DNA of 41,371 nt, taken from the NCBI GenBank assembly GCA_024653305.1, contig JANLFW010000013.1:1-41371 (forward strand), read 5' to 3'. Below are positions 1-41,371 of this stretch, piece after piece (positions within the stretch are counted from its first letter, which is position 1; every line of letters starts with the position of its first letter). The notes under the pieces are model-generated. The model searched no databases. It was not told the DNA's origin and worked only from the letters and a program-made list of their open reading frames with translations. The position numbers and the translations under genes are program-made. The stretch comes from Candidatus Acetothermia bacterium (GTDB lineage: Bacteria > Bipolaricaulota > Bipolaricaulia > Bipolaricaulales > Bipolaricaulaceae).

Positions 1-420
1 TCTCTTTTCATCCAGCATCGGTTGTCAAGGTCAAGTCCTGCAATCAAACATTGGCCTCCTCTTGCTCGCACTGCCGGACCCTGTGGCTCACGGTGGCGCA
101 TTGGAAACCCGGATCCTCGGCAACTCAGCGAAGATCTGGGCCAACGATGGGTGAACCCAATCTCCTAGCTCATGCGCCGGCGCTGCCAGGCGATGGGTAG
201 GTCGAAATGCGGTCAATTGCGTGTGCTTGCGAATGGGACCAGGGCCTGCACGGAGCGGGAATGGGTGGGAAGCCCCCGGTGCAGTACACTACGGACGTCG
301 GGTACGGTTTGCCCAAGAAGTTCGCATCGTGCTCACACCCACTTTGGGGCAACGGTAGCCCGGCTAGGGCACGTGGGGGTCAACGATCTCCTGCGGTCTC
401 GAACGCGGCTTCGCTCTGCC
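1..420. other. No recognisable gene at left edge
   Basis: I translated this stretch by eye in several frames and found no reading frame with a start signal, a family motif or plausible composition. Its base composition is more mixed than the G+C-rich coding DNA to the right. It may be an intergenic region or a decayed gene. The stop codon of the HEAT-repeat gene on the minus strand ends at 421, and I see no clear hairpin plus T-run terminator beyond it. Confidence 0.5.
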
Positions 421-1224
421 CTACAGGTAGCGCAACGCCTCCCGGGCCACCGGGGCCCGGTCCTCATCGTCGAGCCACCGCCTGAGCTCGCTCGCGGTCG
501 GATCCGGACACGCCTGGCCGAGCCGGGCCAGCGCCCGCACCACCGCCCCGCGCACGTACCGCCGCTCGTCCAAGCTCAACCGCCGAAGCAGGATCAACGC
601 CTTACGCGCCCGCGCCTCCACCCCAGGGCCGGTCATGGCCATCGCCACGTGCCAGAGGACCTGCTCGTCATGGGACGCCGACCAATACGTGAGCTGTTCG
701 AACGTGTCGTCCGGGTACACGGGGAAGAACGTATGGGCCAACACCCCTGGGCCGAGGGCGTTGCGCACCTCCGGGGTCCGGTCCGAAAGCAGCGGTTCGA
801 GCAGCTTGAGGAGCGGGCCCGCCCAGTCCAGGCGCACCGGATCCGCCGCCGCCGCCGCGGCCAGGACCACCGCCCGCCGCACCAGCGGGTCGGGGTCGCC
901 CCGCCACGTCCCGAAGAGGGGATAGACCTCGGCAAACCGCTGGGCAAGAAGCGCCCCCAGGGCGTGCACCGCCGTCTCCCGCACGAACCGATCCTTGTCG
1001 CTCGCCAGGGTGCGCAGGCGGTCCACCGCCTGGTCCGGCTGAGGGGCGTGGGCGAGCACGGCGGCAGCCAGACGCCGGGCCTCGGCCGGGCCGGCGGTCA
1101 GCCGGTCGGCCCAGGCCACCGCCCCTTCATCCGCAAGCTGGACGATGAGGCGCTGCCGGGCCGCGCCGCCACGGCGCCATGCCTCGGCCAGTATTTCCAC
1201 ATCCGCAACCGGTTCCCCGCCCAT
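421..1224 (-). CDS. HEAT-repeat protein
   Basis: This protein of about 267 residues is made of successive paired helices with the signature of HEAT or PBS-lyase repeats: alternating A/L-rich helices, a recurring D-x-x-x-x-V-R motif (for example DRFVRETAVHALG, DPLVRRAVVLAA, RYVRGAVVRALARLG), and short D/P-containing turns. There is no signal peptide or membrane segment, so it is probably a cytoplasmic scaffold or protein-protein interaction module. DNA-glycosylase AlkD-like proteins share this fold, but I see no specific AlkD residues. I chose ATG 1224 because a good promoter (TTGACG, 18-base spacer, TATGCT) places the transcript start at about 1225, which would make the message leaderless. 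ATG 1236 and GTG 1251 are upstream in-frame alternatives. It is a single gene, transcribed away from the exported protein at 1344. Confidence 0.7.
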   Translation of the reverse strand: MGGEPVADVEILAEAWRRGGAARQRLIVQLADEGAVAWADRLTAGPAEARRLAAAVLAHAPQPDQAVDRLRTLASDKDRFVRETAVHALGALLAQRFAEVYPLFGTWRGDPDPLVRRAVVLAAAAAADPVRLDWAGPLLKLLEPLLSDRTPEVRNALGPGVLAHTFFPVYPDDTFEQLTYWSASHDEQVLWHVAMAMTGPGVEARARKALILLRRLSLDERRYVRGAVVRALARLGQACPDPTASELRRWLDDEDRAPVAREALRYL

Positions 1225-1231
1225 GTTGCGC

Positions 1232-1261
1232 AGCATACCCGTAGCGCCCACCCGCCGTCAA
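1232..1261 (-). promoter_or_regulatory. Promoter of HEAT-repeat gene
   Basis: On the minus strand TTGACG (1261-1256) is followed after 18 bases by TATGCT (1237-1232). The predicted start at about 1225 coincides with ATG 1224, so the transcript would be leaderless or nearly so. Confidence 0.55.
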
Positions 1262-1320
1262 ACATGAAACCCCACGCCTCCGGCGCGGAGCCGGCCGCAA
1301 CGCCCCCTTTGCCCATGGGC

Positions 1321-1340
1321 TACAATGGGCCGAGGAGGGA
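1321..1340 (+). promoter_or_regulatory. Candidate -10 box and RBS of exported protein gene
   Basis: TACAAT at 1321-1326 resembles a -10 hexamer, and a strong ribosome site (GAGGAGGGA) sits just before ATG 1344. I see no good -35 hexamer, so the promoter call is tentative while the ribosome site is clear. Confidence 0.4.
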
Positions 1341-1343
1341 ACC

Positions 1344-1799
1344 ATGCGCAAGCGTGCTGTGCTGTGGGGAATGGTGGTTCTGGTCACGTTCGCGGCCATG
1401 GCCCAGGCCCCAGTAGCCCGTCCCAGCTTGGGGGTGGGAATGCAGTCCACCCTGCCCGCGGTGTTCGGGATCTCGGTTCGTTACTGGGCCACACCGGACC
1501 GCGGCTTCGAGGGAGATCTGTTCCTGATCACGTTCGACGGGCAGCCGTACGGGATGGCCGCTGCCCGGGCCCTGGCCCGGGCAGCGGCCACCGAGTCGGC
1601 GAGCTTCTACGTGGCCGGTGGGGCGTCGCTCCTGTTCCCGGACGAGAACTTCCTCGCCCACCTGTGCGGGGGGATCGAGCTCGCCCTCCCGTTCGCCCCG
1701 TCCCTGGCCCTGAACACCGAGTTCGGTTTGACCTGGGCACGGGATGGCGGATGGGGGATGGCGTTCGGCACCGGGATCCACTTCTACTTCGGCCTCTGA
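1344..1799 (+). CDS. Small exported protein, possibly outer-membrane barrel-like
   Basis: This 151-residue protein begins with a clear signal peptide: M-R-K-R, a hydrophobic stretch over residues 5-18, then A-M-A-Q-A as a likely signal peptidase I site. The mature part is short alternating hydrophobic/polar strands rich in G, F, Y and W, and it ends in an aromatic residue pattern (F-Y-F-G-L) as many outer-membrane beta-barrels do. The length is small for a full barrel. No family is recognised, so function is unknown. The start is supported by a GAGGAGGGA ribosome site. The stop is 18 bases before the tryptophanase start, so the two are probably co-transcribed. Confidence 0.65.
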   Translation: MRKRAVLWGMVVLVTFAAMAQAPVARPSLGVGMQSTLPAVFGISVRYWATPDRGFEGDLFLITFDGQPYGMAAARALARAAATESASFYVAGGASLLFPDENFLAHLCGGIELALPFAPSLALNTEFGLTWARDGGWGMAFGTGIHFYFGL

Positions 1800-1817
1800 T
1801 CGAGAAGGGAGCGAACC

Positions 1818-3170
1818 GTGGACGGAGGCTTCTGGCCTAAACCGTACAAGATCAAGGTAGTGGAGCCGATCCGCCTCCTCCCGCGGGAGGAACGGGAGAA
1901 GAAGCTCGAGGAAGCAGGGCACAACGTGTTCCACCTTGCCAGCTCCGACGTGTACGTGGACCTCCTCACCGACTCCGGCACCGGGGCAATGTCTCAAGCC
2001 CAATGGGCGGCGCTGATGGAGGGGGACGAGGCCTACGCCGGGAGCCGCTCGTTCGTCCAGTTCCAGCAAACGGTCCAGGACATCACCGGGATGCCCTACG
2101 TCCTCCCCACCCACCAGGGCCGGGCCGCGGAGCACGCGTTCTTCTCGGTCGTCCTCAAACCGGGCGATGTGGTCCCCAACAACACCCACTTCGACACCAC
2201 CCGGGCCAACATCCTGGCCCTGGGCGGCCGGCCCCTCGACCTCCCCACCTCCGAGGGCCTCGACCCCGACCTGGACCACCCCTTCAAGGGTGACATGGAC
2301 GTAGAGGCTCTGCGCAAGCTACTCCGTGACCCCCCGGGCCGGATTCCCTTCCTCATGCTTACCCTCACCAACAACACCCTCGCCGGGCAACCCGTGTCTC
2401 TGGCCAACGTGCGGGCGGTCGCGGAGCTCGCCCATTCTTATGGGATCTCCCTCATCCTGGACGCCGCCCGCCATGCCGAGAACGCCTACTTCATCTGGGA
2501 GCGGGAGCCGGGGTACCAAGACAAGACGCCCAAGGAGATCGCCCGGGAGGTCTTCTCCCTGGCCGACGGGTGCCTTATGTCCGCCAAGAAGGACGGGCTC
2601 GGGAACATCGGGGGGTTCATCGCCCTCCGCGACCCTGAGCTCTACGCCCGGTGCGCCGAGCGGCTGATCCTGGTGGAGGGCTTTCCCACTTATGGAGGCC
2701 TCGCTGGCCGGGATCTCGCGGCCTTGGCCGTGGGCCTCCGGGAGGCCCTGGATTTGGGGTACCTCCGGGACCGGGTGGCTCAAGTGCGGTGGCTCGCCGA
2801 GCGCCTGCGGGAGATCGGGATCCCGGTGTACTGGCCGCCGGGCGGACACGCGGTGTACGTGGACGCTGCCCGCTTCCTCCCGCACATCCCCAAGGATGCG
2901 TTCCCCGGCCAAGCCCTGGTGTGCGCCCTCTACCTTGAGGGCGGGGTGCGGGCGGTGGAGGTGGGGTCGGCCATGCTCGGGGAGAGCGCGAAGCTGGAGC
3001 TCGTGCGGTTGGCAGTGCCCCGGCGGGTCTACACCCAGGAGCACCTCCAGGCGGTGGTGGAGGCGTTCGCGCGGATTCGGGAGGGGGCCCGAGCGATCCG
3101 CGGCCTGCGCCTGGTGGAGGGCGGGGGGCCGCTCAGGCACTTCGTGGCCCGGTTCGTCCCGGGAGTGTAG
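1818..3170 (+). CDS. tnaA: Tryptophanase (L-tryptophan indole-lyase)
   Basis: This PLP-dependent beta-eliminating lyase of 450 residues would cleave tryptophan to indole, pyruvate and ammonia in the cytoplasm. The family is recognised from [21 protein letters not shown] and the S-A-K-K-D-G segment, where Lys258 (the second lysine) should hold PLP. Two positions separate it from its sister tyrosine phenol-lyase. The segment A-V-E-V-G-S has a hydrophobic residue where phenol-lyase has its substrate arginine, and the C-terminal L-R-H-F keeps the histidine that phenol-lyase replaces with phenylalanine. Tryptophanase is therefore preferred, though neither point is proof. The start is GTG, 18 bases after the preceding gene. 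folE follows after 10 bases, so they likely form an operon. Indole production would suggest amino-acid fermentation. Confidence 0.88.
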
Positions 3171-3180
3171 GGGGTGGAGC

Positions 3181-3750
3181 GTGGACCTAGCTAAGATCGA
3201 GGCCGGGGTCCGGCTGATCCTGGAAGGCCTGGGGGAGGAGTTGCTCTCCCCGGAGATGCGCGCCCATACCCCGCGCCGGGTGGCGGAGATGCTCGTCGAG
3301 CTGTGCGCCGGGCTGGGAAAGGACCCGGCGACGGAGATCGAGGTCCTCCTCCAGGAGCCCTACGACGAGATGGTGGTCCTGCGGGACATCCCGTTCCACT
3401 CCCTGTGCGAACACCACCTGCTGCCGTTCCTGGGCCGGGCCAGCATCGCCTACTTGCCCAAGGGCGGGCGGATCGTGGGGGCGGGGAAGCTCGCCCGGGT
3501 GCTCGAGGTGGCCGCGGCCCGGCCGCAGCTCCAGGAGCGGCTTACGTCCGAGGTCGCCGATGCCCTGATGGAGAAGCTCCACGCCCACGGGGTCCTCGTG
3601 TACGTCGAAGCGGAGCACCTGTGCCTGACCCTGCGCGAGGCGCGGGCTCAAGGAAGCGTGCTCGCCACCTCCGCCATCCGCGGGATCTTCCGCACCGATC
3701 CTGCGGCCCGGGCCGAGGCCTTGGCCCTCATTCGCCGATCTTCCACGTGA
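3181..3750 (+). CDS. folE: GTP cyclohydrolase I (FolE type)
   Basis: This enzyme of 189 residues converts GTP to dihydroneopterin triphosphate, the entry step of folate and also of 7-deazapurine (queuosine) synthesis. The zinc site is complete: Cys76 and His79 in S-L-C-E-H-H, and Cys148 in E-H-L-C-L. Other family features are the Y-L-P-K-G segment, R-P-Q-L-Q-E-R-L-T near 114-122, and A-T-S-A-I-R-G-I-F near the end. The usual M-R-G after the last cysteine is changed to L-R-E-A. The start is GTG 3181, 10 bases after tnaA. Its last 23 bases overlap the convergent PP-loop gene. Since no other folate gene or queuosine synthesis gene is present here, which pathway it serves cannot be told. Confidence 0.9.
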   Translation: MDLAKIEAGVRLILEGLGEELLSPEMRAHTPRRVAEMLVELCAGLGKDPATEIEVLLQEPYDEMVVLRDIPFHSLCEHHLLPFLGRASIAYLPKGGRIVGAGKLARVLEVAAARPQLQERLTSEVADALMEKLHAHGVLVYVEAEHLCLTLREARAQGSVLATSAIRGIFRTDPAARAEALALIRRSST

Positions 3751-4741
3751 CCAGCCGTGGGTCGTCCTTGGGCAACGGAACCACGGTGAGTTCGCACGTC
3801 CCCCCGACGTGGGCCAGCACCGCCCGCACCGGCTCCCCGGGGCGGGCATCGCTGTACCGGGCGGCCAGTTGCACGGCGAGGCCAAGCTCCTCCTCGGTCG
3901 GCGTTCCCTCGACCAGCGCCAGGGGGCCGGGCACGTCGGGGAACATGACCGTCCACCGTCCGGATGAAAATCCGTTCAGGATCACGTTTTCAGTCTCGTC
4001 CCGGCTCACGATGACCTTGGCCGTGGGCGAGATGCGGAAGTGCCGGCCGTACCGGAGGAGGGCGAAATCGCGCTCGTCCAGGGCGGCGAGACCACGAGCC
4101 CGGGACGCATCCCGCAACCGGGCCGCATACGCCTTCTCAAGGAGGAGGCAGCACCCCCCGGACGGCTGGAGGAAGTGGTGGATCCCCCACGCTTGGGCCA
4201 ACGCCAGTTGCCGCCGCCGGGAGCGGCCCTGGATGTCCAGCCAATCATCGCGCCGCACCCAGCCTTGCCTTTCGGGGTAAGTGGCCGGGAGAAGGCGGCC
4301 AGAGAGAGGACGCACGACACGATCGCCCAGCCCTGACTCCTCGGCCACGAGCTCGAGGGCCCGCCGGTGCTGGGACATCGGGCGCTGCCCAAGGACCTCT
4401 CCGGTGACCACGAACGCCGCCCCCTCCGCGGCCATGACCTCGCCCGCCTTCCGCACCATGAAGATGCGGCAATCGATACACGGGTTCATCCCCGAACCAT
4501 AGCCGTGCCGGGGATGGCGGACCACGTCCAGGTACTCGCGGGACACATCGAGGAGCCGGACCGGGATGCCGAGCGCCTGTCCGGTGGCGAGCACGGTGTC
4601 GCACCGGCCCTGGCCGATACAGAACCCCGTGGCCAGGTTCACCCCTACCACCCCGAACCCGAGGCGCAGGGTGAGGGCCGCCGCCAGCGCCGAATCCAGC
4701 CCGCCGGAGAGGAGAGCGATCGCCCGGACGTCTTCCACCAT
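3728..4741 (-). CDS. PP-loop ATP pyrophosphatase, tRNA-thiolase-like
   Basis: This protein has 337 residues. The N-terminal PP-loop S-G-G-L-D-S (12-17) marks an adenylating enzyme of the MnmA/ThiI/QueC/TtuA superfamily. It is followed by N-P-C-I-D-C (Cys88, Cys91), the T-G-E-V-L-G-Q-R-P-M-S-Q segment, G-W-V-R-R, L-D-I-x-G-R-S-R-R and a G-G-C-C pair (Cys197, Cys198). This arrangement fits a family of MnmA-related proteins often annotated tRNA methyltransferase or 2-thiouridylase. The cysteines could carry persulfide sulfur or bind an iron-sulfur cluster. It is not QueC, as the QueC zinc motif is absent. Residues from about 230 to the end form an extra domain of unknown role. The transcript appears leaderless: a TATGAT box ends 9 bases before ATG 4741. 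Confidence 0.65.
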   Translation of the reverse strand: MVEDVRAIALLSGGLDSALAAALTLRLGFGVVGVNLATGFCIGQGRCDTVLATGQALGIPVRLLDVSREYLDVVRHPRHGYGSGMNPCIDCRIFMVRKAGEVMAAEGAAFVVTGEVLGQRPMSQHRRALELVAEESGLGDRVVRPLSGRLLPATYPERQGWVRRDDWLDIQGRSRRRQLALAQAWGIHHFLQPSGGCCLLLEKAYAARLRDASRARGLAALDERDFALLRYGRHFRISPTAKVIVSRDETENVILNGFSSGRWTVMFPDVPGPLALVEGTPTEEELGLAVQLAARYSDARPGEPVRAVLAHVGGTCELTVVPLPKDDPRLVTWKIGE

Positions 4742-4749
4742 CGCCGGGT

Positions 4750-4755
4750 ATCATA
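4750..4755 (-). promoter_or_regulatory. -10 box of PP-loop gene, leaderless start
   Basis: TATGAT on the minus strand (4755-4750) predicts transcription from about 4743, immediately before ATG 4741. There is no ribosome site. The -35 region is poorly matched. Confidence 0.4.
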
Positions 4756-4821
4756 GAAGGTGAACGTGGGTTCCCTCCACCGGATCTCCACCGGGGCTGC
4801 ACGCTCCCTGCAAACCGGACG

Positions 4822-4850
4822 TGCTAGGGTGGTACCCAGTTCAGGAGGTG
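4822..4850 (+). promoter_or_regulatory. Extended -10 and RBS of htrA
   Basis: TGC-TAGGGT at 4822-4830 reads as an extended -10, and AGGAGGTG just before ATG 4859 is a near-perfect ribosome site that decides the start over the upstream GTG at 4760. Confidence 0.4.
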
Positions 4851-4858
4851 AAGCGCGC

Positions 4859-6265
4859 ATGAGGAAGGTCACAGCCGTTTCGGCGTTGATGCTCGTGGTG
4901 GCGGTGCTCGCCCTGGGTCAGAACGTTCAAGAGGCGATCACCGCCTCCGGCCAGGCGGCGGTCAAGGCGGCCATCGCCCGGGTCGCCCCGGCGGTGGTGA
5001 AGATCGAGGCCGCGAAAAGGGTCACGAGTTGGTGGGACCAGATCTTCCAAGATCCGTTCTTCCGGCGCTTCTTCGACGTACCCCCTCTCGGGGGGCGCGA
5101 GGTGACCTCGCTCGGGTCGGGGTTCGTGGTGGAGCACGGGGGGAAGCGCTACGTCCTGACCAACGCCCACGTGGTGGAAGGGGCGGACTCGATCCGGGTG
5201 AGCGCCCAGACCGGGAAGATCCTCCCGGCGAAGGTGGTGGGCACGGACAGTTGGTTGGACCTGGCGGTGATCGCCGTGGAGGACGCCGCGGACCTGCCCG
5301 CCGCCCCGCTCGGGGACTCCGACGCCCTGGAGATCGGGGATTGGGTGATCGCCATTGGGAACCCCTTGGGGTTCTCGCACACGGTGACCCTGGGCATTGT
5401 CTCCGCCCTTAACCGGGACGTGCCCCGGCCCGACGGGTCCGGGTACTACCGGCGCATGATCCAGACCGACGCCGCCATCAACCCCGGCAACTCCGGGGGC
5501 CCCCTGGTGAACGCGTACGGCGAGGTGGTGGGGATGAACACCGTCATCGCCCGCAGCACCGAGAGCGGGGTGGCGGTGGAGGGGATCAACTTCGCGGTGC
5601 CGATCAACGAGATCAAGCAGGTGCTCGCCCGGATGATCGGGGAGGGCAAGGTGACCCGGGCCTGGCTTGGGGTGTACATCCAGGACCTGATCCCGGGCAT
5701 GGAGCGCCAGTTCGGCGTGGCCTCCGGACAGGGGGTGCTGGTAGCGGATGTCGTCTCCGGTTCCCCGGCGGAGGCGGCTGGGATCCGGCGCGGGGACGTG
5801 ATCGTGTCCGTGGCTGGGCGTAAAGTGGGGTCCGCCGCTGCCCTGCAGGCGGAGATCATGTACCGCCGAGTCGGGGAGACGGTGGAGATCGGGCTCGTGC
5901 GGGATGGCCGGTCCCTGACCCTCACCGTGACCCTGGGGGCGCGGCCGGATGAGGGGACGGTATCCCCGCCCAGCCCGGCTCCCGGGGCGCCCAAGTTCGG
6001 GCTGACGGTTCACGACATCACCCCGGACGTGGCCAGACAGTTCGGCCTCACCCAGGTCGCGGGCGGGGTCATCGTGACCGCGGTGGCTCCCGGATCCCCA
6101 GGCCACGTGGCCGGGGTCAGAGCCGGGGACGTGATCGTGGAGGTAGACCGGCGGCCGGTGAAATCGGTGGAGGACTGGAACCGAATCGTGGCCGATCTGC
6201 CCGAGTCGGGGGTGCTGCTCACCGTGCAGCGGGAGGGACGGACCCTGTTCCTCTTGATACAATAG
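4859..6265 (+). CDS. HtrA/Deg-type periplasmic serine protease
   Basis: This protein has 468 residues. A signal peptide (hydrophobic residues 8-20) sends it across the inner membrane. The trypsin-like domain has its triad intact: His104 (T-N-A-H-V-V), Asp134 (W-L-D-L-A-V) and Ser212 (N-P-G-N-S-G-G-P-L). An F-F-R-R-F-F stretch at 67-72 matches the LA-loop region of DegP/DegQ. Two PDZ domains follow (about 290-385 and 395-468), each with a G-V-x-V/I-x-x-V start and an A-A/V-G-I/V-R-x-G-D-V-I core. This is the domain order of DegP/DegQ/MucD, which degrade or refold damaged envelope proteins. It sits alone between a divergent PP-loop gene and tRNA-Pro, whose promoter overlaps its stop codon. Confidence 0.92.
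   Translation: MRKVTAVSALMLVVAVLALGQNVQEAITASGQAAVKAAIARVAPAVVKIEAAKRVTSWWDQIFQDPFFRRFFDVPPLGGREVTSLGSGFVVEHGGKRYVLTNAHVVEGADSIRVSAQTGKILPAKVVGTDSWLDLAVIAVEDAADLPAAPLGDSDALEIGDWVIAIGNPLGFSHTVTLGIVSALNRDVPRPDGSGYYRRMIQTDAAINPGNSGGPLVNAYGEVVGMNTVIARSTESGVAVEGINFAVPINEIKQVLARMIGEGKVTRAWLGVYIQDLIPGMERQFGVASGQGVLVADVVSGSPAEAAGIRRGDVIVSVAGRKVGSAAALQAEIMYRRVGETVEIGLVRDGRSLTLTVTLGARPDEGTVSPPSPAPGAPKFGLTVHDITPDVARQFGLTQVAGGVIVTAVAPGSPGHVAGVRAGDVIVEVDRRPVKSVEDWNRIVADLPESGVLLTVQREGRTLFLLIQ
6235..6263 (+). promoter_or_regulatory. Promoter of tRNA-Pro inside htrA end
   Basis: TACAAT at 6258-6263 lies 17 bases after GGGACG (6235-6240). It overlaps the htrA stop codon and predicts a start about 6 bases before the tRNA. 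Confidence 0.4.
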
Positions 6266-36230: not shown

Positions 36231-38181
36231 CGGCCTTGGCCTTCAGCTGGGCCAGGATCCGCTCTTGGAGCTGAGCGGGCACGTAGTCATAGCGCAAGAA
36301 CTCCATCTGGAACGTGGCCCGGCCCTGGGTGAGGGACTTCAGGTCCAGGGCGTAGGACAGGGTTTCCGCCATCGGGATCTCTGCCCGGATCACGGTGCGC
36401 CCGGCCGCGGATTCCATCCCCAGGATCCGCCCCCGGCGCGAGGTGAGGTCGGAGATGATGTCCCCGGTGAACGCGTCAGGGGTGGTCACGGCGAGGAGCA
36501 TCACCGGCTCCAGCAAGGCCGGCTCCGCTTTCTCCACCGCCAGCTTGAACGCGGTCCGGGCGGCGATCTTGAAGGAGAGCTCGGAGGAGTCCACCTCGTG
36601 GTACATGCCGTAGAACACAGCGGCCTTCACGTCCACCACCGGGAATCCAGCGAGCACGCCCTCCTCCATCGCCTCCCGCACCCCCTTCTCCACCCCGGGG
36701 ATGAACTGCTGGGGGATAACCCCGCCCTTGGTCTCGTCCGCAAACTCGAACCCGCTCCCGCGGGGCAGGGGCTCGATGCGGAGGTGGACCTCCCCGAACT
36801 GGCCGTGTCCGCCGGTCTGCTTCTTGTGCCGGTATTGGGCGGTGGACGTCTTGCGGATCGTCTCCCGGTACGGGATCTTGGGGACCCGGAACTGCACCTC
36901 CACCCCGTACCGGGTGCGCAGGCGCTCCGCGAGCACGTCGAGCTGCACGTCGCCCATCCCCGACACAAGGGCCTCCTTGGTCACCGGGTCCCGTTGGTAG
37001 CTCAGCGTGGCCTTGATCGCCACCAAGTCCCGCAGGACCATGCTCATCTTCTCCTCGTCCGCTTGGGACTTGGGGGCCACGGCCCGGGTGAACACGGGCT
37101 TGGGGAACGGGATCGGGGGCTCCAGTTCCCCGTCCGGAGCCGCGGAGAGCGTGGCCCCCAGGGTCAGGCCCTCCAGCTTGCCGAGCGCCACGATGTCCCC
37201 GGCCCCGGCCTGGCCGGTCTTCTCCAGCTTCGTCCCGCTGAACCCGTACACATCGCGGACCTGAAGTTTATCCTTGGTGGCGAGGTTGAACAGGGTGTCC
37301 CCCTCGCGCACCGCCCCGGCGAGGACCTTGGCGTAGCCCAGTCGGCCGAGGTAGGGGTCGATGGCCAGGGAGAACACGCGCAGGCGGGCAGCGGCCCCGT
37401 CCGTGTTCTCCGGGACCAAGGTGAGCACCGTGTCCACCAGCTCCTTCACCCCCTGGCCGGTCTGAACCGAACCCCACAGCACGGGGATGAGGCGACCTTG
37501 CCCCACCCCAGCCCGCATGGCGGAAAGCGCCTCGTCGCGGGACAGCGGCTCGTCGGCCAGGACCTTCTCCAGCAAAGCATCGTCGAAGGTCGCGATCTCC
37601 TCGATGAGCTCGGTGCGGAGCGAACCGGCCTGGTCGGCGAGATCCGGCACGCCTCCCTTGCCGGAGAACGCGGTCGGCTGGCCGGTGAGGAGGTCGACGA
37701 GCCCCAGGAACTTGTCCCCATCCCGAATCGGGAGCTGGAGGGCGCAGAACTTCCCGTCCAGGTTGTGCCGCAGCTCGTCCAGCACCTTCTTCGGATCGAC
37801 GTGGGGCTTATCGAGCATGTTCACGAACACCACCGCCGGCCGGTTCATGCGCTGGCGGATCGCCCACGCCTGCTCGGTCACCACCTCCACCGGTTTCTCC
37901 GCGTTCACCACCACCACCGCGAGGTCGGCGGCATCCAACCCCTTGTAGATCTCCTCCACGAACTCCCCCAAGCCGGGGGAGACGATGAGGTTGAGCTTCT
38001 TGTCTTTCCAGGTACAGGAGCCGACGGAGAGGTCGATGGAGAGACCGCGGTTCTTCTCCTCCGGTGTGCGGTCGAACGCGACCTCGCCTTGCACCCCGGC
38101 AGTGCGGACAATGGCCTCCGCAAGCGCGGTCTTCCCAGAGCCGGAGTGACCGACGAAACATACGCTGTAGGCCTGCCTCAT
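36220..38181 (-). CDS. EF-G-like GTPase paralogue with degenerate G3 and G4
   Basis: This 653-residue protein has the five-domain arrangement of elongation factor G but resembles the EF-G2 group. G1 is G-H-S-G-S-G-K-T (11-18) and G2 R-G-L-S-I (45-49). G3 reads V-S-P-G (67-70) instead of D-T-P-G-H, lacking both the magnesium-binding aspartate and the catalytic histidine, and G4 is N-M-L-D (121-124) instead of N-K-x-D. The domain IV region G-G-H-G-Q-F-G-E-V is present. It may bind GTP weakly or not hydrolyse it. ATG 38181 is chosen for its GAGGTG ribosome site; GTG 38190 is the alternative. It leads an operon with the CBS and YjbQ genes. Confidence 0.82.
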   Translation of the reverse strand: MRQAYSVCFVGHSGSGKTALAEAIVRTAGVQGEVAFDRTPEEKNRGLSIDLSVGSCTWKDKKLNLIVSPGLGEFVEEIYKGLDAADLAVVVVNAEKPVEVVTEQAWAIRQRMNRPAVVFVNMLDKPHVDPKKVLDELRHNLDGKFCALQLPIRDGDKFLGLVDLLTGQPTAFSGKGGVPDLADQAGSLRTELIEEIATFDDALLEKVLADEPLSRDEALSAMRAGVGQGRLIPVLWGSVQTGQGVKELVDTVLTLVPENTDGAAARLRVFSLAIDPYLGRLGYAKVLAGAVREGDTLFNLATKDKLQVRDVYGFSGTKLEKTGQAGAGDIVALGKLEGLTLGATLSAAPDGELEPPIPFPKPVFTRAVAPKSQADEEKMSMVLRDLVAIKATLSYQRDPVTKEALVSGMGDVQLDVLAERLRTRYGVEVQFRVPKIPYRETIRKTSTAQYRHKKQTGGHGQFGEVHLRIEPLPRGSGFEFADETKGGVIPQQFIPGVEKGVREAMEEGVLAGFPVVDVKAAVFYGMYHEVDSSELSFKIAARTAFKLAVEKAEPALLEPVMLLAVTTPDAFTGDIISDLTSRRGRILGMESAAGRTVIRAEIPMAETLSYALDLKSLTQGRATFQMEFLRYDYVPAQLQERILAQLKAKADEG

Positions 38182-38198
38182 CCAGATCACCTCAAAGG

Positions 38199-38228
38199 TT
38201 GCTTGAAAACGCGACGGCAGTATATCCT
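38199..38228 (+). promoter_or_regulatory. Promoter of DUF47-phosphatase operon
   Basis: TTGCTT (38199-38204), then TATATC after 16 bases (38221-38226) or TATCCT after 18 (38223-38228). An AGGAGGG ribosome site precedes ATG 38258. Confidence 0.5.
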
Positions 38229-38247
38229 AGAGGGAGAAGGGCGACAA
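38219..38247 (-). promoter_or_regulatory. Promoter of EF-G-like operon, overlapping the divergent -10
   Basis: On the minus strand TTGTCG (38247-38242), 17 bases, TATACT (38224-38219), giving a start near 38212 and a leader of about 30 bases. Its -10 shares four base pairs with the plus-strand -10. Confidence 0.65.
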
Positions 38248-38257
38248 AGGAGGGCCG

Positions 38258-38905
38258 ATGTGGTTCCGTCGCGGTCGGGCGGTGGAAGTCCGGGGACTGA
38301 TAGCGGAGCACCTGAACCTGGTGGAGGAGGCGGTGGCGTCGATGGCCCGCGGGGTCTGCGCCTACCTGGATGGCCGGCCATGGGAGGAGGTGGAAGAACT
38401 GGCGGTGGAGACCCACCGCCGGGAGGCCCGGGCCGATGACGTGCGGCGGGAGACGGAGCTCGTCCTGGTGCGCGGAGCGCTCCTCGCCGGCACGCGCAAG
38501 AACCTCCTGGACATCGTGGAAGGGGTGGACCGACTGGCCAACGCCGCGGAGGCAGCGATGGACTTCCTCGTGCTGCAGCGGGTCAAGCTCCCCGAGCTCC
38601 TCCATCCCCTGATCCGGGAGATCGTGGACACCATCCAGGACCAGATGGTGGACCTCAAGGCGGCGGTGGCCGGTCTCCTCGACGGCGCTCCGGACACGAT
38701 GAAGCGCGCCGCGGAAGTGGACCGCAAGGAGAGCCGGGTGGACGAGTTCCAGCGCCGGGCGATCATGCGCCTGTTCGCCACCGAACTTCCCCTGGCGGAG
38801 AAGATCCTGGCCCGGGAGTTCGTGGAGAGGCTTGTGGAGTTCGCGGACCGGGCCGAGGACGTGTCGGATCTGGTGATCATGGCCGTCGCTGTGCAGCAAC
38901 CGTAA
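38258..38905 (+). CDS. PhoU-like DUF47 protein, first copy
   Basis: This 215-residue all-helical protein matches the DUF47 group: an early long helix with E-H-L-N-L-V-E-E-A-V, the central R-K-N-L-L-D-I-V-E-G-V-D-R-L-A-N-A-A-E segment, repeated E-x-x-x-D-x-x-x-R pairs that bind metal in PhoU-type folds, and F-A-D-R-A-E-D-V-S-D near the end. DUF47 proteins usually sit beside Pit phosphate transporters and are thought to tune them; no Pit gene is visible here. It is followed after 9 bases by the phosphoesterase. Confidence 0.85.
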   Translation: MWFRRGRAVEVRGLIAEHLNLVEEAVASMARGVCAYLDGRPWEEVEELAVETHRREARADDVRRETELVLVRGALLAGTRKNLLDIVEGVDRLANAAEAAMDFLVLQRVKLPELLHPLIREIVDTIQDQMVDLKAAVAGLLDGAPDTMKRAAEVDRKESRVDEFQRRAIMRLFATELPLAEKILAREFVERLVEFADRAEDVSDLVIMAVAVQQP

Positions 38906-38914
38906 AGGAGGAAG

Positions 38915-40093
38915 ATGCACACCTCAGCGTTGAGGAAGGGCATGGCCGTGCGGGGAGCGGGGGTTCTCCTCCTCGCCGTGGCGCTGTGGGCCACGGGCCA
39001 ACCCTGGCCCGCCCTGGGCCCATGGGTGGCGGCCGTGGGGCCGACCGAGGCCGTGGTGTCCTGGCAGGCTGCCGAGCCGGGGATGGGGACGGTTTGGTAT
39101 GCCGAAGCCTCGGCGTACCCCGCGGGCGCGCTGAGCGTGGCCGTGGAGGCCCCGACAGCACTCCAGCACGTGCGATTGAGCGGCCTCGCCCCCGGGGTTC
39201 GGTACGTGTACCGAGTGGTGCTGCCAAGCGGTGCGGAGAGCCCGGTGGCGTCGTTCACCACCCCGCCGGAGCGGTTCCAGCCGTTCACATTCCTCGTGTA
39301 CGGCGACAGCCGCACCCACTACGACCGACACCAGCTCGTGGCCGAGCGCATGGCCGCGGAAGAGGCGGCGTTCGTGGTCCACGTGGGTGATCTCGTCGAG
39401 TCGCCGACCCCGCTGGAGTGGGAGAAGTTCTTCACCTCCGGGACCCCCCTGTTCCAGGCCACCAGCTTCTACCCGGTGCTAGGGAACCACGAGCGGAACC
39501 ACGCCTCGTACTACGACCTGTTTCCGCTCCCCGCAGGTGGCGGCCGGGCCGGGAAACAGTGGTGGTCCCTCCGCTGGGGGGACGTGCTCCTGGTGGGCCT
39601 GGACTCGAACCTCGTGTACCTCAAGTTCACCGGCCTGCGGGAGCAGACGGACTGGCTCCGGGAGGTCCTCGCCCAGGACGCCCGGTACAAGTTCGTGTTC
39701 CTGCACCATCCCCTGTACAGTTCGGACCTGTTCTATCGGAGCGATGAGAACCTGGCCAAGCTGTGGGCCCCGATCTTCCGGGAGCATGGGGTGACCGCGG
39801 TCTTCGCCGGGCACTGCCACAACTACGAGCATGTGGTGCGGGAAGGGGTACACTACTTCGTGACCGGCGGGGGCGGGGCGCCGCTGGCCCCGTTGTCCCC
39901 GATCCGTGTGGAGGGGTCCGTGTTCGCCGCGGATTTCGTTCTCCACTACGTGCGGGTGGAGGTGGGCGAGGCGGGGGTCACGGTGAAGATGATCCCGGTG
40001 GCGAGGGAACAGAAGACGGAAACCGGGACCGAGCTCGTTCTCCTATCCGGGGTGCCCCTTGAGGTGGTGGAGTTGGGGGGTGATGGTGGTTGA
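38915..40093 (+). CDS. Exported metallophosphoesterase with N-terminal Fn3-like domain
   Basis: This 392-residue protein has a signal peptide (hydrophobic residues 15-27), a beta-sandwich domain (about 35-118) like that preceding purple acid phosphatases, and a calcineurin-type catalytic domain. The metal motifs are Y-G-D-S-R (129-133), H-V-G-D-L (156-160), G-N-H-E (190-193), a histidine in F-L-H-H-P-L-Y, and G-H-C-H-N-Y-E-H. The tyrosine that gives purple acid phosphatases their colour is not in the G-D-L-V-E motif, so it is probably a plain dimetal esterase. It would release phosphate outside the inner membrane. Its position between two DUF47 genes ties it to phosphate supply. Confidence 0.87.
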   Translation: MHTSALRKGMAVRGAGVLLLAVALWATGQPWPALGPWVAAVGPTEAVVSWQAAEPGMGTVWYAEASAYPAGALSVAVEAPTALQHVRLSGLAPGVRYVYRVVLPSGAESPVASFTTPPERFQPFTFLVYGDSRTHYDRHQLVAERMAAEEAAFVVHVGDLVESPTPLEWEKFFTSGTPLFQATSFYPVLGNHERNHASYYDLFPLPAGGGRAGKQWWSLRWGDVLLVGLDSNLVYLKFTGLREQTDWLREVLAQDARYKFVFLHHPLYSSDLFYRSDENLAKLWAPIFREHGVTAVFAGHCHNYEHVVREGVHYFVTGGGGAPLAPLSPIRVEGSVFAADFVLHYVRVEVGEAGVTVKMIPVAREQKTETGTELVLLSGVPLEVVELGGDGG

Positions 40094-40752
40094 GAGCCCT
40101 GTTGGTGCGGCTTTTGGGGCGGCGGTCGTTCGTATCCCTGCGGGAGCACGCGGCGGCGGTGGAGGCGGCGGCGGAAGAGCTGGGCCGCCAGCTTCGGGCG
40201 TGGCTGCGCAATGAGGCAGTGAACGCAGATCTGGTAAGCCAAAAGGAGCACCAGGCGGACATCATGAAGCGGGAGATCCGGGTCCAGCTCACCCGGGCGT
40301 TGTGGCTGCCCGTGTCCCGTCCGGCGCTGCTGCAGCTTCTGTGGCACCAGGACGAGATCGCCGACCTCTGTCAAGACGCGGCGCTGATGATGGCCCTGCG
40401 CCGGCCAGAGCTCGGCATTGAACTCGAGGACGGGTACCGGGCTTTGGGCGAGGCGCTGAGCAAGACAGTCCACGCCTATCACGTAACCATCGGCGAACTC
40501 GACGAGGCCGTGGCCAACGGCAACATCCGCGCCCAGGCCCCCAAGGTGGTGGAGGGGGTGGAGCGGATCAACCAGCTCGAACACGAGTCGGACCTGGTGG
40601 AGCGGGAGGTGGTGGCCACGATCTACCGAAAGGAGGAGCTTCCTGCGTTCGACCGGTACCACCTGATCCAGCTCGTGCTCATGCTGGGGGGGGTCGTGGA
40701 CCAGGTAGAGAACGCGGCTGGAGACCTCCGGGTGATGGTCTCCGAGGCGTAG
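40090..40752 (+). CDS. PhoU-like DUF47 protein, second copy
   Basis: This 220-residue helical protein is related to the first DUF47 gene but clearly diverged. It has the PhoU-type acidic pairs (E-H-Q-A-D-I-M-K-R-E-I-R, L-L-W-H-Q-D-E-I-A-D-L-C-Q-D-A and L-E-H-E-S-D-L-V-E-R-E-V) and a terminal G-G-V-V-D-Q-V-E-N-A-A-G-D-L-R. The TTG start overlaps the stop of the phosphoesterase (TTGA), pointing to coupled translation. Two DUF47 proteins could form a heteromeric regulator or serve two transporters. Confidence 0.8.
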   Translation: MRALLVRLLGRRSFVSLREHAAAVEAAAEELGRQLRAWLRNEAVNADLVSQKEHQADIMKREIRVQLTRALWLPVSRPALLQLLWHQDEIADLCQDAALMMALRRPELGIELEDGYRALGEALSKTVHAYHVTIGELDEAVANGNIRAQAPKVVEGVERINQLEHESDLVEREVVATIYRKEELPAFDRYHLIQLVLMLGGVVDQVENAAGDLRVMVSEA

Positions 40753-40862
40753 GCGCCTCCGCTCTCCGGGGCTGCGTCCCTGAACCTCCGTGGGCGGCGC
40801 GCCCCTGCTCCCGGTGGTGAAGGCCGCCGAGCACGGGTTGCTCGATGCCTTATCTCGAACGC

Positions 40863-40892
40863 TTGCCCGCCTGTGGCTGAACCGGATACAAA
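40863..40892 (+). promoter_or_regulatory. Candidate promoter of right-edge gene
   Basis: TTGCCC (40863-40868), 18 bases, TACAAA (40887-40892), with the predicted start only a few bases before ATG 40902; a GGGAG ribosome-like site overlaps this short leader. Confidence 0.4.
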
Positions 40893-40901
40893 CAGGGAGC
40901 G

Positions 40902-41371
40902 ATGGCGGAGAAGGTGCTATTTCGGGGCTACCTCGCGGACCTCACCGCGGTCGCGGCCCAAGGCGATGCCCGCGAGGAGAGCTTCTACCCGGCGCTCGCG
41001 GACTTCCTGGCCGCATACGCCCGGGCTACCAGGCTGGACAATGTCCACGTCACCACGCTCCCCAAGCCCACCGAGGCCGGAAACCCCGACTTTCGGGTGT
41101 GGGACGGGCATCAGCACGTCGTGGGCTACATCGAGGCCAAGGCGCCCACCGCGCCGACGGTCAGCAAGGTGGCGTTCCCATCCCTGGTCAAGGTGGGCCA
41201 GGAGCAGACCGGGCTCGTCCGGTTCGAGGACCCCGACGGCGACATCGTGCGGGCGGAGTTCTCGATTGTGGAAGGCGACCCGGCCACGATCCAGGTCAAG
41301 CCGGGGCCGAGCTTCGATCCCGGGGTGAGCGGCCGGACCTCGGGCTCGTTCGGGTTCACGGTGATCGTGAC
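40902..41371 (+). CDS. Chimeric ORF: nuclease N-terminus joined to extracellular-type domain (partial)
   Basis: The open frame runs off the window after 156 residues. Residues 1-83 (R-G-Y-L-A-D-L-T-A-V ... P-K-P-T-E-A-G-N-P-D-F-R-V ... G-Y-I-E-A-K-A-P) match the start of large restriction-methylation proteins with an N-terminal PD-(D/E)XK nuclease; Asp63, Glu78 and Lys80 form the catalytic core. From about residue 84 the sequence changes to a beta-sandwich style (V-R-F-E-D-P-D-G-D, Q-V-K-P-G-P-S-F-D-P-G-V), typical of exported proteins. No signal peptide precedes it. Either a rearrangement joined two genes, or the assembly is chimeric here. Confidence 0.6.
   Translation, partial: MAEKVLFRGYLADLTAVAAQGDAREESFYPALADFLAAYARATRLDNVHVTTLPKPTEAGNPDFRVWDGHQHVVGYIEAKAPTAPTVSKVAFPSLVKVGQEQTGLVRFEDPDGDIVRAEFSIVEGDPATIQVKPGPSFDPGVSGRTSGSFGFTVIV

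Follow-up and report, generated by a model that had tools for sequence, protein, structure and literature searches.

A type IIG restriction enzyme start and an Ig-like domain meet at a breakpoint beside a contig end in a Bipolaricaulota genome

The window, i.e. the whole stretch of DNA analysed (41,371 bp), is the entire contig C13 of G000, a 95%-complete Bipolaricaulota MAG of 73 contigs, and the assembly holds nothing past 41371. At its right end, we found an open reading frame (40902-41369, + strand; ATG start, 156 codons, stop-free up to the contig end at 41371) whose halves have two different origins; both match homologues far above chance, and, as the first-pass annotation had noted, the frame is unbroken between them. 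The halves meet at nt ~41150, only 221 bp before the contig stops. This combination is missing in relatives, and a second tip of the same MAG looks chimeric. We give about an even chance that the breakpoint at ~41150, where two unrelated genes meet at the dead-end tip of a contig, was created by an assembly or library chimera; the join would then have arisen in the laboratory or during computation, and no cell would carry it. By calling the fusion not a real feature, we mean that the evidence does not support a fused gene product, and we do not claim that an artefact is proven.

Codons 1-83 (40902-41150, +) are the truncated start of a type IIG restriction-modification enzyme. Over residues 1-91, the frame aligns with the beginning of a ~1050-aa enzyme present in many Bipolaricaulota (58-76% identity, E down to 1e-42), one close relative being from a Candidatus Bipolaricaulota MAG, and PADLOC REase_MTase_IIG matches residues 8-83 weakly. 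The N-terminal PD-(D/E)XK nuclease motif (NPDFRVW..GYIEAK) is present and aligns with the homologues; the domain is incomplete after EAK. At nt ~41150, homologues read IEAK-APT-ENLEP..SEQLxRYR vs IEAKAPT-APTVSKV in the window, and in ~140 genomes they always run on as ENLEPVAESEQL and never into an Ig domain. These results bear out the earlier reading of a restriction-type nuclease start, cut right after the catalytic E-A-K by a break near 41150: real similarity to the enzyme ends at residue ~83.

The same chain has no N6-adenine methylase domain, as the frame quits the enzyme at codon 83, and the C-terminal specificity domain Type_ISP_C is absent from both the window and the readable G000 contigs. 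No further enzyme sequence occurs in the readable G000 contigs (at least 3 kb), including the remainder of a methylase gene for which the first-pass annotation had suggested looking elsewhere in the genome; positive controls in relatives worked. By Pfam, the intact relative L022 (1048 residues) has N6_Mtase and Type_ISP_C (PF18135, E 5e-90), and it matches the PADLOC type IIG models (E 7.5e-244) as well as a solved chain, 7lo5. Scanning intact relatives (~1050 aa) with Pfam revealed no helicase family. Hence, "type IIG" describes the enzyme better than "type ISP", and only the first part of the earlier label, type IIG/ISP-like, stands.

Upstream of the enzyme start lies a PhoU-like (DUF47-type) gene (40090-40752, +), which marks the locus: its protein is 97% identical in the sister genome G001, and it is the same neighbour of the enzyme copies in G005, G046 and G023. 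Collinearity with G001 (96% nt identity over 36318-40827) ends at 40827/40828. Past this point, G001 (C34, L095:1-10287, compared with window 40828-41371) carries a dehydrogenase gene and transposase-like ORFs 3' of PhoU instead, with neither an enzyme nor an Ig gene there; its enzyme copy, which is split, sits on another contig. Hence, the 3' side of PhoU is a variable site. By alignment of the upstream regions, we found a promoter-like element, TTGCCC - 18 nt - TACAAA (40863-40892, +), 9 nt before the ATG, with CTTGNCC..TATAA(G/A) as its counterpart upstream of the enzyme in relatives; its function as a promoter is presumed from this likeness. The 5' side of the window's enzyme gene looks normal because this conserved element precedes its ATG.

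At the PhoU site, all enzyme copies seen are broken or split. PhoU is followed by enzyme remnants in G005 (a complete genome; aa 1-28 plus ~995-1041) and in G046 (aa 1-99, decayed after), and by a split copy in G023, and G041 holds a G005-like deletion remnant on another contig in addition to an intact copy. Hence, decay of this enzyme is common. The internally deleted remnants of G005 (L057:3350-3617) and G041 (L053:1053-1313) retain aa 1-28 together with ~50 residues at the C-terminal end; their breakpoints are alike at two different locations, through shared ancestry or recurrent deletion. Several Bipolaricaulaceae genomes also carry a short dispersed intergenic repeat, GTAGCGTCGGGG(T/C)TT(A/G)TCCCCGACG, which occurs in L114 (C11 ~44800-44960) and, upstream of the enzyme, in L056, L057 and L034.

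Of more interest than the junction itself is a split of the enzyme gene at residue ~612-618 by HEPN and MNT nucleotidyltransferase genes, which we observed in four genomes from three genera (G001, G023, G040 and G002). By Pfam, the embedded toxin-antitoxin pair is PF05168 (HEPN, E 3e-22) and PF01909 (MNT, E 8e-10). The N-half ends at the same place every time, a separate ATG directly after MNT opens the C-half, and the ORFs overlap or are short-spaced. G002 (L117:465-4285) has all four ORFs open; the C-half has a frameshift in G001 (L055 ~1671-5493, minus strand) and an internal stop in G023 (L096 ~1460-5253, minus), and the G040 locus (L116 ~1-3427, minus) has a frameshift in its N-half and reaches the contig end. 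Unsplit copies are found in G042 (L022), G041, G020, G015 and G097. HEPN genes near restriction-modification systems are well known (PMC3710099), and a targeted, non-thorough literature search returned no description of this nested, enzyme-splitting arrangement.

In the right half of the frame (41151-41371, +), an exported bacterial Ig-like domain begins and runs for ~73 of its ~103 positions before the contig stops. Residues ~85-156 (FEDPDGDIVRAEF..FDPGVSGRTSGSFGF) have their best match in G052 (50% identity, E 2e-24); a profile of 14 sequences, the window's own among them, aligns its positions 2-73 (103 in all) with the window at E 1.3e-26. The domain occurs in exported Bipolaricaulota proteins and in a Deltaproteobacterial MAG, and some of these relatives match Pfam Big_6/Big_13 weakly. 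Their architectures, judged by eye save for the Pfam-tested L010 and L011, include WD40-Ig and Ig domains that follow NHL-type repeats or a parallel beta-helix; signal-like hydrophobic starts are frequent (L012, L015 and L019; by eye). The exported character first proposed for this half is supported, as that of an Ig-type domain. The window lacks the exported context: its ORF begins with the cytosolic start of the enzyme and has no signal peptide. AlphaFold2 predicts strands in the Ig half (block pLDDT ~83-93), and the Ig-type matches by Foldseek were all non-significant. With a GC content of 69.2%, the Ig piece is within the host range in both GC and synonymous codon usage, so an origin in a distant phylum is unsupported, and the top relatives by bit score are Bipolaricaulota except for a short 61% segment in the Deltaproteobacterial MAG. 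Among ~140 genomes, Ig homologues always lie in other proteins and never after an enzyme start.

A second contig of the MAG switches in the same way. At the right tip of C11 (C11 45012-45289, i.e. L114:10013-10290), profile and DNA comparison showed that a hydrolase start, MGGAGFRDLRRAMFRFYEEGRYRDALEA, conserved with 87% nt identity to G001:C54, gives way no more than ~100 bp past its start codon to an antisense Ig fragment that fills the last ~180-205 bp. These two domains, C13 (positions 2-73) and C11 (31-97), were the only Ig domains that a profile search found in the readable G000 contigs; both are cut by contig ends, and the same search found none in G001. Because the two tips have their best matches in two Ig domains that stand side by side in a single G052 protein (IgB, then IgA), they look like two halves of one Ig gene, parted within a ~13-residue interval. 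In G052, IgB ends LALEAK just before IgA, with a stop in the frame between them.

At the C13 junction (41133-41152, +; GAGGCCAAGGCGCCCACC), the shared stretch is EAKAPT, about 10-19 nt, which is possibly microhomology; at the C11 junction, a 9-13 nt overlap is visible. The C13 zone is unique in the readable genome, no second copy of the junction 18-mer being found elsewhere in it. The Ig domain that precedes the matching one in G052 ends LEAK, and IEAKAPT of the enzyme together with LEAK-x-P of the Ig linker could have been the source of microhomology; the window's own Ig gene presumably had EAKAPT at this linker.

Several G000 contigs share exact 55-bp end overlaps (e.g. C13 left with C2 left), a length that points to a de Bruijn assembly with k=55. 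Neither right tip (C13 or C11) overlaps another examined tip, and for want of such an overlap both look like dead ends of the k=55 graph; between the C13 tip and the examined parts of C11 or C12, matches were 10-15 nt and chance-level. We sampled ~600 kb of G000, comprising both ends of most readable contigs, with 11 right-hand tips outside the sample. Contigs C41-C73, all under 3 kb, were masked (N), and absences hold for the readable contigs. The ~600 kb sampled takes in about four fifths of the readable tips; it did not contain the continuation of the hydrolase (aa 33 onward), and that of the enzyme (aa 84 onward) was unseen at the examined tips. On chimeric contig ends, our literature search returned general assembly papers and nothing specific.

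If the join is a chimera of assembly or library preparation, the left side would be genuine (PhoU, then the promoter and the first 83 type IIG codons), the last ~221 bp would be a fragment of an exported Ig gene attached through the EAKAPT stretch, and the same artefact would have put the neighbouring Ig domain onto C11. This fits two switches that both lie no more than ~220 bp from a dead end, a pair of conserved genes each cut mid-domain at junctions present in no relative, tips without the 55-bp overlaps of other contigs of the MAG, and an Ig content of G000 that comprises only the two truncated fragments when G001 has none. However, reads spanning the junction should be needed for a de Bruijn path at k=55, the true continuations of enzyme and hydrolase were unseen at the examined tips (with contigs <3 kb masked), the Ig piece has host-like codon usage and GC, and the enzyme decays at the PhoU site in relatives; moreover, adjacent Ig domains at both tips are unexpected from two independent random artefacts. 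The main competitor, to which we assign a little under an even chance, is a real but non-functional rearrangement, in which the enzyme gene was interrupted after codon 83 and its start fused through microhomology with an Ig gene whose other half went to the C11 hydrolase. The product would be gene debris: the nuclease would lack its final strands and helices, and there would be no export signal. A break in the ~13-aa interval between adjacent Ig domains of one G052 protein, tip orientations compatible with a single rearranged locus, short microhomology at both junctions, host-like codon usage, the enzyme remnants (G005, G046) and split copy (G023) at the PhoU site, and the lack of the rest of the enzyme in readable contigs, with positive controls in relatives, argue for such an event, but it needs the joint truncation of two conserved genes, both contigs end within ~220 bp of the junctions, and the genus sister G001 is without any Ig gene. 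We regard an artefactual tip and a real non-functional rearrangement as about evenly likely, since the arguments roughly balance, and these weights are judgement and uncomputed. Both had been among the readings offered by the first-pass annotation, as an assembly join and a decayed restriction gene.

A functional chimera, with the nuclease start and Ig-like domains serving as an effector or a domesticated factor, is very improbable. The unbroken frame and the promoter-like sequence before the ATG speak for it, but by chance alone one junction in three would keep the frame intact, no complete nuclease domain is present, and an extracellular-type domain stands without a signal peptide ahead. Its domain order is unmatched in ~140 genomes, a GTDB r220 scan, plasmids and viral contigs; we therefore reject a known fusion family. 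The suggestion of a toxin-like chimera in the first-pass annotation has no support, given the same absence of homologues in this order, the missing export signal and the shortened nuclease domain. We think it just as improbable that an expressed in-frame fusion arose in one lineage only, by microhomology recombination where the enzyme decays.

This end of C13 shows in practice why an unusual in-frame fusion next to a contig end should not be counted as a new protein: a second tip of the same MAG switches likewise. If the rearrangement is real, it would extend by one case the record of restriction genes decaying downstream of PhoU, a recurrent site in the Bipolaricaulota.

In comparison with known systems, the right half has the core of bacterial Ig-like domains (weakly Pfam Big_6/Big_13), FxDPDGDIVxAxF..FDPxVxGxxxGSFxF, but, unlike exported Ig proteins, it ends at position ~73 of ~103 and lacks the start of its own protein. 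The type ISP enzymes LlaGI and LlaBIII (PMC4872093, PMC4666363) are similar to the intact relatives of the window's enzyme in the methylase and the C-terminal specificity region; however, they have a superfamily 2 helicase between nuclease and methylase, which those relatives lack, and the alignment with LlaBIII begins at query residue 309 (LlaBIII residue 845), leaving the helicase part unmatched. Relative to type IIG enzymes (PADLOC REase_MTase_IIG; solved relative 7lo5, 1029 aa), the window has 83 of ~1050 residues, without the methylase and specificity domains, and it is alike throughout these N-terminal 83 residues, including NPDFRVW..GYIEAK.
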